From Halothermothrix sp. (GTDB lineage Bacteria > Bacillota > Halanaerobiia > DY22613), in NCBI GenBank assembly GCA_016841825.1, contig JAENYK010000006.1:124001-188000 (forward strand): a DNA stretch of 64,000 bases. The letters are read 5' to 3'. Under the pieces are notes generated by a model. That model was not told where the DNA came from and made no database searches. It saw only the letters and a list, made by a program, of their open reading frames with translations. The translations under genes and the position numbers were made by a program. Below are positions 334 to 59,423 of this stretch, in pieces (the stretch's first letter is position 1; the number at the start of each line of letters is the position of its first letter).

Positions 334-463
334 TTTAACGACATATTAGAAGGAAAGCCTTCCGATTTTTATTGGTAGGAGTATAATACTTCAGTGGAGG
401 TACAATCCTCTTCTGAAGTCGTTAACCCTGGGCATTAATAGTTTGCTGTTAATGTATCTTTAA
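334..463 (+). repeat. structured intergenic repeat, copy 1
   Basis: First of at least eight copies. It starts with TTTAACGAC and ends near CTTTAA. The best-formed hairpin (388-419) pairs ACTTCAG with CTGAAGT plus GAGG with CCTC. The 3' strand CTTCTGAAGTCGTTAA (411-424) can instead pair with the 5' strand TTAACGAC..TTAGAAG (335-352). A second hairpin at about 434-452 closes TTAATAG on CTGTTAA. It is followed by terminator-like hairpin 481-520 and then by copy 2. Confidence 0.75.
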
Positions 464-598: not shown

Positions 599-740
599 TT
601 TTAACGACATTCAGAGGTAAGTCTCCCGGTCTTTATAGGAGGGAGTGAATGACTAAGTAGTGTTTACTTCGGTGGAGATAATTTCCCTTTCTAAAATCGC
701 TAAACTAAAGAATTAACAGCTTGTTGTTAATACAACTTTA
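599..740 (+). repeat. structured intergenic repeat, copy 2
   Basis: Matches copy 1 in order and orientation: TTTTAACGAC start, inner hairpin CTCCC..GGGAG (622-646), TACTTCGGTGGAG segment, then AATTAACAGCTTGTTGTTAA. Its 3' strand (CTAAAATCGCTAAAC) is partly degenerate, so the closing stem is weak. The final hairpin keeps pairing through a C-to-T change that gives a G-U pair. It lies 154 bp upstream of exbB. Confidence 0.7.
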
Positions 741-17544: not shown

Positions 17545-17688
17545 TTTAACACACTTCAGAAGGATAGTCTCCCGGCCTCTATTGGTGGGAGTTTATATAA
17601 CTAAAACAGTGTTTACTCAATGGAAGTACAAACTCCCTTCTGAAGTCGTTAATCTAAAGAATTACCAACTTGCTGTTAATGCGATTGT
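17545..17688 (+). repeat. structured intergenic repeat, copy 3
   Basis: Lies between the metal ATPase and its arsR-type regulator, in sense orientation. Inner hairpin CTCCC..GGGAG is intact, and TTCAGAAGG (5') pairs with CCTTCTGAA (3'). The final hairpin (TTACCAACTTGCTGTTAA) has mismatches. It ends about 33 bp before the arsR start. No clear promoter lies directly upstream, so this copy is probably read through from the ATPase transcript. Confidence 0.75.
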
Positions 17689-17721
17689 ACAAATCAGAGA
17701 GTCTAAAAGGAGGTAATGGCG

Positions 17722-19378: not shown

Positions 19379-19460
19379 CTAATCTATTGTCCTTTCTTTT
19401 CTGATCTAGAAATATTATAACCCAAAAAAAGAATTTCGCCAAATTTTATTTTTTAGAGTT

Positions 19461-19608
19461 GAAGTTACATTAGCAGCAAGTTGTGACTATCTGGATTTAA
19501 AGACCTCAGAGAGAGATTCATACCTCCATTGAAGTAGACACTATTTGGTTAATTTTTACTCTCGCCTTCAGCGAGCAGAGACTTTTTTTTATGGAATGTC
19601 GCTATAAA
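19461..19608 (-). repeat. structured intergenic repeat, copy 7 (minus strand)
   Basis: Read on the minus strand it begins TTTATAGCGACATTCC and keeps the family order. The inner hairpin here is CTCGC..GCGAG instead of CTCCC..GGGAG, a compensatory change. The next hairpin pairs ACTTCA with TGAGGT. The 5' strand that could pair with the distal strand is largely lost (poly-A), so the ACTTCA hairpin is the one retained. It lies about 80 bp upstream of the radical SAM start, in sense orientation to it. Confidence 0.7.
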
Positions 19609-19634: not shown

Positions 19635-19643
19635 ATTATAGCA
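19635..19643 (-). promoter_or_regulatory. extended -10 promoter for the radical SAM gene
   Basis: On the minus strand TGCTATAAT (19643 to 19635) is an extended -10 element. A TTGAAA lies upstream, but only 12 bp away, so it is unlikely to be a proper -35. Transcription would start near 19628, about 20-25 nt before repeat copy 7. Confidence 0.55.
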
Positions 19644-21228: not shown

Positions 21229-21334
21229 GTTGGATATACAAAATTACTTATTTGGGGCAGGATAATTAATATTTGTCCAGAATTAAAATAGATAGTAGAA
21301 TACAAGGTAATAGGAAGATCTGGTGGTCGATGTA

Positions 21335-21560
21335 TCTTTAAAGGTAACTTTAGAGATGCATGACCTTAAAAGGGAAGCTAAGGATAGGTAAAGAGAACTA
21401 CCTGTCGCAGCGCGGTCCCGCCACTGTGATCAGGGAGTGAACCTTCAATAGACCACTCGTTTATTTGGGGAAGGTGGAGGTGAATGATGATCTGACAGCC
21501 AGGAGACCTGCCAGATTTACAACCAGAGTGTGGCTGCACACACTAACCTTCGGCAGAAAG
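21335..21560 (+). ncRNA. cobalamin (AdoCbl-type) riboswitch
   Basis: Carries the B12-box features in order: AAAAGGGAA, then GCGCGGTCCCGCCACTGTGA, then GACAGCCAGGAGACCTGCC. A terminator hairpin sits about 25-50 nt further on (21587-21616) before the BtuF-like gene. The arrangement fits transcriptional attenuation: B12 bound lets the terminator form and shuts off uptake. Boundaries are approximate, as the P1 stem was not drawn precisely. Confidence 0.93.
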
Positions 21561-24190: not shown

Positions 24191-24219
24191 TTTACAATTA
24201 GAACGAAATGTGTTATAAT
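24191..24219 (+). promoter_or_regulatory. promoter upstream of repeat copy 4
   Basis: TTTACA (24191-24196), 17-bp spacer, TATAAT (24214-24219). The start near 24226 is about 30 nt before repeat copy 4, which would then be in the leader of the 54-aa gene. Confidence 0.65.
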
Positions 24220-24254: not shown

Positions 24255-24396
24255 TTTAACGACATTTCAGAAGGATAGTATCCCAGCTTTTATAAGTAGA
24301 AGTATAACTAAATGATGTTTATTCAGTGGAGGCGCAAATTCTCTTCTGAAGTCGTTAAACCTAAGAATTAACAGCTTGCTGTTAATGCGACTTTAA
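24255..24396 (+). repeat. structured intergenic repeat, copy 4
   Basis: The best-closed copy. TTTAACGAC pairs with GTCGTTAAA and TCAGAAG with CTTCTGA (5' strand 24255-24273, 3' strand 24342-24358). The alternative hairpin TTCAG..CTGAA uses the same 3' strand. The final hairpin TTAACAGCTTGCTGTTAA (24368-24385) is perfect. It ends about 38 bp before the start of the 54-aa gene and lies downstream of a good promoter. Confidence 0.8.
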
Positions 24397-30846: not shown

Positions 30847-31130
30847 AAAAACTCCGCCCTTATAAAAAGGACGGAGTAATCTCCGCGATACCACCTTACT
30901 TGACTATCTCCCAGTACTGAGTAGGTTGAATAGTCCACCTCACTAACAGCCCAACAATAGTTGGAATGTTCTCCAGTTTAACGGTTGGAAGCCGGGTGGG
31001 ATTAACACCAGGTCAGGAGCGGGTTTCGAAGGGTCTGGTAAGGTCTCTTTCAGCCGGGAGAAGACCATCTCTGAATACCTCAAACTTCTACTCATTCTCC
31101 ATCATTCCATTATGTTTATTAATCTGTCAT
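30847..31130 (-). ncRNA. T-box leader of proS
   Basis: On the minus strand the T-box motif reads AAGGTGGTATCGCGGAG (30897 to 30881). It is followed by a terminator whose stem ACTCCGTCC/GGGCGGAGT spans 30877-30851, with a T tract. Pairing of uncharged tRNA with the T-box bulge would favour the antiterminator. Stem I occupies about 31110-31010. A CCC triplet in GAAACCCGC (near 31020) is a possible proline specifier, but I have not drawn the specifier loop. Confidence 0.9.
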
Positions 31131-31207: not shown

Positions 31208-31336
31208 GTTAATAATTTTTTCAGACATTTTAGCGTGGAAGTTTTCAGGTCGTTATAGTGGACGTATAGATAACTTGTTTTATGGGAGGTCTAAATCCTT
31301 TGATGAAGTTATTAAACCCAACCGATTTTAATATTA
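31208..31336 (+). repeat. degenerate structured repeat, copy 6
   Basis: Recognisable mainly in its second half: GTGGACGTATAGATAAC, GGAGGTCTAAATCC, then GATGAAGTTATTAAACCC and ACCGATTTTAATAT. As in copy 5, the final AACAGCTTGCTGTT hairpin is missing. The 5' half is poorly conserved. It lies upstream of and in sense with the moxR operon, about 170 bp from its start. Confidence 0.5.
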
Positions 31337-39137: not shown

Positions 39138-39166
39138 TTGACAAAAAATTCGGAAAAATATATAAT
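39138..39166 (+). promoter_or_regulatory. consensus promoter of the DUF3798 transporter operon
   Basis: TTGACA (39138-39143), 17-bp spacer, TATAAT (39161-39166). Start near 39173, giving a leader of about 360 nt that contains repeat copy 5 and a 14-codon frame. Confidence 0.8.
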
Positions 39167-39204
39167 TAACTATAGGTTTTAATCACAAATTGGCAAATTA
39201 AGAC

Positions 39205-39333
39205 TTTAACGATATTTCAGAAGAGAAGCCCCCCGGTCTCTACAGGTGGGAGTACACATAACTAAATAGTGTTTTACTTCAGTGAAGGTACGAATCCTCT
39301 TGCTGAAGTCTTTAAACTTGATGCGACTTTAAT
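39205..39333 (+). repeat. structured intergenic repeat, copy 5
   Basis: Starts TTTAACGATATTTCAG about 32 nt after the predicted start of transcription. The hairpin ACTTCAG..CTGAAGT is perfect, while the 5' strand also pairs with the 3' strand through TTCAG..CTGAA and TTTAA..TTAAA. The inner hairpin reads CCCCC..GGGAG. The final AACAGC hairpin is cleanly missing between AAACTTG and ATGCGAC. Placed in the leader of the transporter operon. Confidence 0.78.
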
Positions 39334-58287: not shown

Positions 58288-59244
58288 GTGGAAAAGGAAT
58301 CTAGATACAGAATTTATTCAGAATATTTACAAGGGAAATATGGTCAGAAAGTATATAAGTTGCCGATTAATCTGCCATTAACCTGTCCAAATCGAGATGG
58401 AACTCTGGGTAGCACAGGTTGTACCTTTTGTGGAGATGAGGCTGCAGGTTTTGAAAGCTTGTCAAATCAGTTGTCTGTAGCTGAACAGTTACATCAGAAC
58501 ATGGAATATATTAGAGAGAACTATCGTGCTCAGAAGTTTATTGCCTATTTTCAAAATTATACCAATACATATTTACCTTTGGAGGATTTTAAGAAGTATA
58601 TCCGGGAAGCGTGTATCCCTGATATTGTGGAGATAGATATCTCAACTCGACCGGATTGTATTCATAATGCATATCTGGAAGAACTGGCCCGGGTGAGAAA
58701 TGAGCTTAATGTAGAGGTTGGCATAGAATTGGGATTACAGACTGCTAATTATCATACACTTCTTTCGATTAAGCGTGGACACACACTGGCTGAATTCATT
58801 GATGCTGTTCAACGGATTCAGGAGTTTGGCTTTGAGATCTGCACTCACGTAATTTTAAATTTGCCGGGAGATACCAGGGAAGATACTATCGAAACTGCAA
58901 AAATCATATCTGCACTGGGGATTCAACATGTCAAAATTCATTCACTATATATTGTCAAAGATACACAGATGGCTGACGAATACGAAAAAGATCGGTTAGA
59001 GATGATTACAGTGGAGGAATATATAGAGAGAATGATTGTCTTTTTAGAATATCTGGACCCCAGGATTGTGATTCAACGGTTTTTGGGAAGAGCTCCCAGG
59101 GAACGGACTTTATTTTGCAATTGGGGTTATCATTGGGCTCAGATTAAAGCCAGGATGGATAGAATATTAGAAGAACGTGATTCACGCCAGGGGATTAAAT
59201 TTCACTATCTTGGCGGAAAAGGAGTATTTCGATTCGTTGAATAG
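58288..59244 (+). CDS. YtqA-like radical SAM protein (TIGR01212 family)
   Basis: The 318-residue cytoplasmic protein has the radical SAM motif in CPNRDGTLGSTGCTFCG, where the Cys triad is widely spaced (CxxxxxxxxxxCxxC), a hallmark of this family. Other features are YFQNYTNTYLPLEDFKKYI, EIDISTRPDCI, IELGLQTANYHTLLSIKRGHT and HVILNLPGDTREDTIETAK. Its role is not established; it resembles Elp3-like radical SAM domains. GTG 58288 follows AAAGAGGTGAATCC; a longer frame from ATG 58237 lacks an SD and overlaps the likely promoter. Confidence 0.82.
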   Translation: MEKESRYRIYSEYLQGKYGQKVYKLPINLPLTCPNRDGTLGSTGCTFCGDEAAGFESLSNQLSVAEQLHQNMEYIRENYRAQKFIAYFQNYTNTYLPLEDFKKYIREACIPDIVEIDISTRPDCIHNAYLEELARVRNELNVEVGIELGLQTANYHTLLSIKRGHTLAEFIDAVQRIQEFGFEICTHVILNLPGDTREDTIETAKIISALGIQHVKIHSLYIVKDTQMADEYEKDRLEMITVEEYIERMIVFLEYLDPRIVIQRFLGRAPRERTLFCNWGYHWAQIKARMDRILEERDSRQGIKFHYLGGKGVFRFVE

Positions 59245-59246
59245 AG

Positions 59247-59352
59247 TGAACTCCTTCAGCTAAAGCTGAACTTCGGGGCTTCAGATGGGGATTCAACCCC
59301 ACCTGAGGTAGAACAGGGTAGCTCCCACTGATAGAAGTGGGAGTCATAGAAC
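59247..59352 (-). repeat. structured intergenic repeat, copy 8 (minus strand)
   Basis: Read on the minus strand, three hairpins follow each other in the family order: CTCCCAC..GTGGGAG (59343-59322), CCTCAGGTGGGG..CCCCATCTGAAG (59308-59279) and TTCAGC..GCTGAA (59270-59255). The hairpin order and the TGGGG/CCCC and CTGAAG strands match the other copies, while the loops differ. The hairpin set also recalls the palindromic ends and omega-RNA-like parts of IS200/IS605 elements. It lies 3 bp after a + gene stop, so its orientation is opposite to that gene. Confidence 0.65.
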
Positions 59353-59423
59353 TTAGATATAACTGGGGAATGTTATGAAAGTTTATGTCCTTTTATGGAT
59401 TGGTATGATTGACTCTTAATTGC

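Follow-up and report, generated by a model that had tools for sequence, protein, structure and literature searches.

The window, a 64,000-nucleotide stretch of the Halothermothrix sp. genome, contained seven copies of an intergenic repeat, and the genes behind these copies were unrelated to one another. The copy under study began ~32 nt past the transcription start predicted for the promoter-like site upstream of it (Table 1). Three window copies had originally been described as lying just behind promoters; the sites and the repeat starts were confirmed, with the distance from the predicted start to the repeat corrected to about 22–32 nt. The promoters at the window copies were consensus matches, and their transcription starts were predicted from the sequence. 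The upstream flanks had no common sequence beyond the initial TTTAA of the repeat, in agreement with the proposal that the promoters are separate from it.

Table 1. Repeat copies and promoter-like sites in the window
Feature	Position	Strand	Remark
Repeat copy	334..462	+	
Repeat copy	600..740	+	
Repeat copy	17545..17689	+	
Repeat copy	19459..19606	-	Start at 19606
Extended -10 site TGCTATAAT	19635..19643	-	No clear -35 at usual spacing
Promoter-like site TTTACA-17-TATAAT	24191..24219	+	-35 24191-24196; -10 24214-24219; outside the repeat
Repeat copy	24255..24395	+	
Degenerate repeat copy	31223..31325	+	Weak match, E=1.6e-4
Promoter-like site TTGACA-17-TATAAT	39138..39166	+	-35 39138-39143; -10 39161-39166; consensus match only
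Repeat copy under study	39205..39332	+	TTTAA at both limits; 3' hairpin deleted

All seven copies were in sense with the next gene. The only exception in the original prediction, at 59247, was found not to be a copy: it did not match the repeat consensus and belonged to a separate family (59240-59365) with at least 40 genomic copies at 87–93% identity. This second family was younger than the TTTAA-bounded repeat, and its end hairpin was similar to IS605-type right ends. Two other RNA features were recorded in the window, a cobalamin riboswitch above the Rfam cut-off (21318-21516, plus strand) and a T-box leader just under it, with 87 of 93 bits (30864-31114, minus strand).

The repeat family and its limits

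An alignment of window and genome copies gave a consensus of ~147 nt, TTTAACGACATTTCAGAAGGGAAGTCTCCCAGCCTCTATAGGTGGGAGTATAAATAACTAAATAGTGTTTACTTCAGTGGAGGTACAAATCCCCTTCTGAAGTCGTTAAACTTAAGGCATTAACAGCTTGCTGTTAATGCGACTTTAA, and a search of the 5.08-Mb genome with the family model retrieved at least 150 copies. The copies were bounded by TTTAA on both sides, where conservation ended, and the orientation of the repeat relative to this non-palindromic motif was fixed. In many copies the stop codon (TAA) of the gene upstream lay within the first TTTAA. The predicted fold of the consensus has a 19-bp outer stem, bulged by 2 nt, that encloses small hairpins; a 10-bp hairpin comes after it. Its inverted arms paired nucleotides 1–21 with 92–110 rather than with the 3' end and were thus internal, not terminal; the 3' hairpin adjoined the end of the element, which had no terminal inverted repeats. 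The consensus was too short for a transposase gene. A text search with the repeat sequence gave no match, and no name for the family was found in the literature search.

Nearest copies were at most 93% identical (median 84%), hence there was no sign of recent spread in this genome. Sense and antisense copies had diverged equally (p=0.16).

Promoter-like sites and retention of the fold

Viewed locally, a structured repeat in sense behind promoters suggests a regulatory RNA, such as an attenuator, a riboswitch-like element or an RNA-stabilising stem, kept to regulate the next gene. The positions of the three window copies, the preference for the sense orientation and the strong predicted fold of the consensus are all in line with such a leader. 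Sigma-70-like sites were scored genome-wide in the 100-nt stretch preceding each of 146 copies, a score of at least 10 being taken as strong. A strong site was present within this distance in 12 of the 146 copies, and the top score was common to the copies at 24255 and 39205 and one further copy. The window copies are thus exceptional rather than typical, and the claim that the repeat belongs in leaders behind strong promoters was not supported, as most copies have no such promoter. Among the sense copies preceded by 60 nt or more of upstream space a strong site was more common than at control TTTAA sites (10/54 versus 19/242, p=0.024), which favors a leader; the score distributions of copies and control TTTAA sites showed no difference (p=0.85). 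For one half of all sense copies, the start lay less than 100 nt from a co-directional upstream gene.

RNAalifold returned almost no consensus structure on 31 copies, after which the consensus fold was assessed by pair counts. In the window genome 84.6% of the predicted pairs were kept, compared with 84.5% in shuffles, and the sense copies with room for a leader behaved alike (85.9% versus 86.0%). No compensatory base-pair retention beyond the shuffled expectation was detected among the copies of this genome. Pairing therefore decayed as in the shuffled controls, leader copies included, which argues against a functional RNA. The same is true of the unrelated genes behind the window copies, of the one third of copies that were antisense to the next gene, and of the absence of a match to the repeat in Rfam at gathering and relaxed thresholds. 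A leader-RNA function of the repeat is unsupported, and we regard it as highly improbable. The copies behind promoters would instead be tolerated insertions into 5' leaders, not designed leader RNAs, and the counts across the genome indicate an old mobile element.

Filled and empty sites in Clostridium

The exact 19-mer of the left end was found in more than 100 stretches, nearly all of them from cold-adapted Clostridium. The full Clostridium elements were close to the first 110 nt of the repeat and carried a different 3' hairpin. In the C. tagluense family sample 19 of 147 genomes had the element, and a search of 100 relatives of the window genome found no repeat at the threshold used. A sample of the phylum, with few candidates scored per genome, yielded the window genome and one short match only.

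Empty sites were searched for with the joined flanks of four Clostridium copies against ten genomes. A TTTAA-element-TTTAA site of C. tagluense corresponded to a single TTTAA in Clostridium sp. CF012 at 91% identity; the genes flanking the filled site, judged by eye, are presumably xseA-like and xseB-like. The copy from CS001 had a counterpart in C. tagluense that was just as clearly empty. At the other two sites the element was absent in many species, but the motif varied. A comparison within another set of loci gave one unclear case only. In a tandem pair of copies one TTTAA was common to both. At one orthologous site (L303, L314) a full copy was present in CF012 and C. psychrophilum, only a 3' hairpin remnant in CS001, and nothing in other species. 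Given this remnant and the copy common to CF012 and C. psychrophilum, some of the empty sites may reflect the loss of an older copy; the pattern at this site fits either loss or repeated insertion.

Based on the TTTAA on both sides and on the sites filled in one Clostridium species and empty in another, it was concluded that the repeat is likely a non-autonomous mobile element of MITE/PATE-like type, once moved by a transposase that was supplied in trans and is no longer recognisable here. The divergence of its copies and the decay of their pairing mark it as a fossil in this genome. We proposed that the element inserted beside TTTAA in a constant orientation to the motif and left a TTTAA at both ends. 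Insertion differences among closely related Clostridium also make a search for the transposase practical.

Orientation bias and the probable mode of movement

For the analysis of orientation, genes in 863 kb of sequence around 150 copies were called with a simple codon-score method. In the intergenic regions 99 of 146 copies were in sense with the next gene, compared with 54% of the intergenic TTTAA sites (p=0.002). The sense excess of the original prediction therefore extends genome-wide and is nonrandom, yet the bias, though real, is partial. It was as strong toward the upstream gene (103/148 intergenic copies in sense) as toward the downstream one, which argues against a leader of the next gene. 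In co-directional gaps 85 of 116 copies were in sense, versus 375 of 782 (48%) intergenic TTTAA sites (p=3e-7).

The copies also followed the inferred direction of replication, in 94 of 130 cases (72%) in this genome and in 21 of 28 cases on four contigs of C. tagluense. In a test in which the left and right genes were fixed, replication direction was a significant predictor in the window genome (p=0.012) and gene direction was not (p=0.46). At the Clostridium loci, where replication was inferred from the 8-kb context only, the opposite was recorded (gene direction p=0.018, replication p=0.88). Either replication direction or transcription may be the cause of the bias. An earlier result, in which the sense bias vanished at lagging-strand genes (p=0.001), was withdrawn as confounded, "downstream" having been set by the direction of the element itself; the test with fixed left and right genes, which replaced it, is weaker. 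Convergent and divergent gaps leave gene sense unchanged whichever way a copy points, and in these 33 of 51 copies were in the leading direction (p=0.049). The family thus offers a natural test set for replication-fork targeting versus selection as the cause of repeat orientation.

These data bear on a second explanation, a MITE mobilised by a DDE (double-strand) transposase with a 5-bp TTTAA target duplication, the bias being due to selection against antisense insertions. Empty sites had one TTTAA and filled sites two, a pattern that a 5-bp target duplication would give just as well as the PATE mode, in which the element enters 3' to a fixed short motif and duplicates no target; inverted arms are present, and gene direction predicted orientation at the Clostridium loci. 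However, the arms are not terminal, as the 3' arm ends near nucleotide 110 of 147, and a classical MITE of this kind would differ from the repeat by having terminal inverted repeats common to an IS. A fixed orientation to the non-palindromic TTTAA is not usually imposed by a double-strand enzyme, and the copies tended to follow replication even where gene sense could not differ. We consider movement by a DDE enzyme unlikely.

The non-autonomous element was probably moved by a single-strand, IS200/IS605-like mechanism. IS605 itself targets TTTAA. Features of IS200/IS605-type single-strand transposition include hairpins close to the ends, a constant orientation to a motif that is not palindromic, and a tendency to run with replication (PMC5371812, PMC7290912, PMC6006769). 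The insertion point of such elements is on the 3' side of a short, fixed motif, and their insertions follow the lagging-strand template (PMC7290912, PMC5371812). The inferred mover is a Y1 (HUH) enzyme of the IS200/IS605 type, which would act on single-stranded DNA at the replication fork; with insertion linked to the fork, most copies would come to lie in the direction of replication and hence in that of most genes. Counted against the single-strand mechanism were the lack of a matching transposase and gene direction as the predictor in Clostridium, and counted against an IS605-type element were the long internal inverted arms, which are unusual for such an end.

The genome held TnpA fragments and one intact TnpB. 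The latter, of 376 aa, belonged to a resident IS605-like element (L157:2739-4150, contig C22) with TnpA cut to 52 aa, and two further fragments were located on C38 and C40. The ends of the resident element (TTGATGAACTAACGCCC...) differed from those of the repeat. No RAYT gene was found in the window genome. No repeat copy lay beside the Y1 genes examined in eight Clostridium genomes, and none of the IS200/IS605 ends compared in Clostridium matched the repeat; a transposase with matching ends was thus found neither in the window genome nor in the part of the possible hosts that was covered. Every cold-adapted Clostridium genome checked had Y1 proteins, many of them of ~305 aa, a RAYT-like size (L257, L262 and others). 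The Clostridium Y1 proteins are candidate mobilisers.

Among the known systems, PATEs are palindrome-associated transposable elements of Haloquadratum related to IS605 (PMC3119063), and one PATE-like element has been described in Halanaerobium hydrogeniformans (PMC7290912). The repeat resembles them in being short and gene-less; palindromes lie close to its ends, it lacks true terminal inverted repeats, its end motif is fixed, and its many copies are divergent. It differs in its long internal inverted arms and in that neither this genome nor the surroundings of the Clostridium Y1 genes checked yielded an IS605-type element whose ends match. As no enzyme was found, the repeat was classed as PATE/MITE-like rather than as a proven PATE.

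REP/BIME elements, moved by TnpA-REP (RAYT) (PMC8266576), are likewise intergenic palindromic repeats, and the Clostridium hosts have the Y1 proteins of ~305 aa; in contrast to them the repeat showed no GTAG head and was absent beside the Clostridium Y1 genes examined. The pneumococcal BOX, RUP and SPRITE repeats, 61–63% of which are on the leading strand (PMC3049150), are similar in their features, being small, structured and intergenic with an orientation bias of the same kind, weaker than the 72% of the repeat. BOX and RUP have been attributed to IS elements that carry similar terminal repeats (PMC3049150), which distinguishes them.

A more specific version, which we hold to be speculative and quite doubtful, is an element suited to operons. 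It would enter the stop-codon TTTAA with the upstream TAA kept, and the Clostridium 3' end AGGAGATGATTTAA could give the ribosome-binding site of the next gene, so that sense insertions would be nearly silent; the single-strand transposase would have been common to cold-adapted Clostridium and a distantly related bacterium.

Double changes in the Clostridium 3' hairpin were linked (CACC/GGTG, CTCC/GGAG, CATC/GATG), and the covariation score exceeded that of every shuffle; the existence of subfamilies could explain this just as well as could a role of the hairpin in transposition. Some Clostridium copies (L078, L084, L096, L115, L123) carried an extra hairpin module of ~50 nt (GGATAACAATTGAGAATTGTTATC...), present twice in one copy; such modular inserts recall the modular BOX repeats. 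Some copies (L074, L089, L108) were near-perfect long palindromes with the interior lost, an outcome that template switching at hairpins would give.
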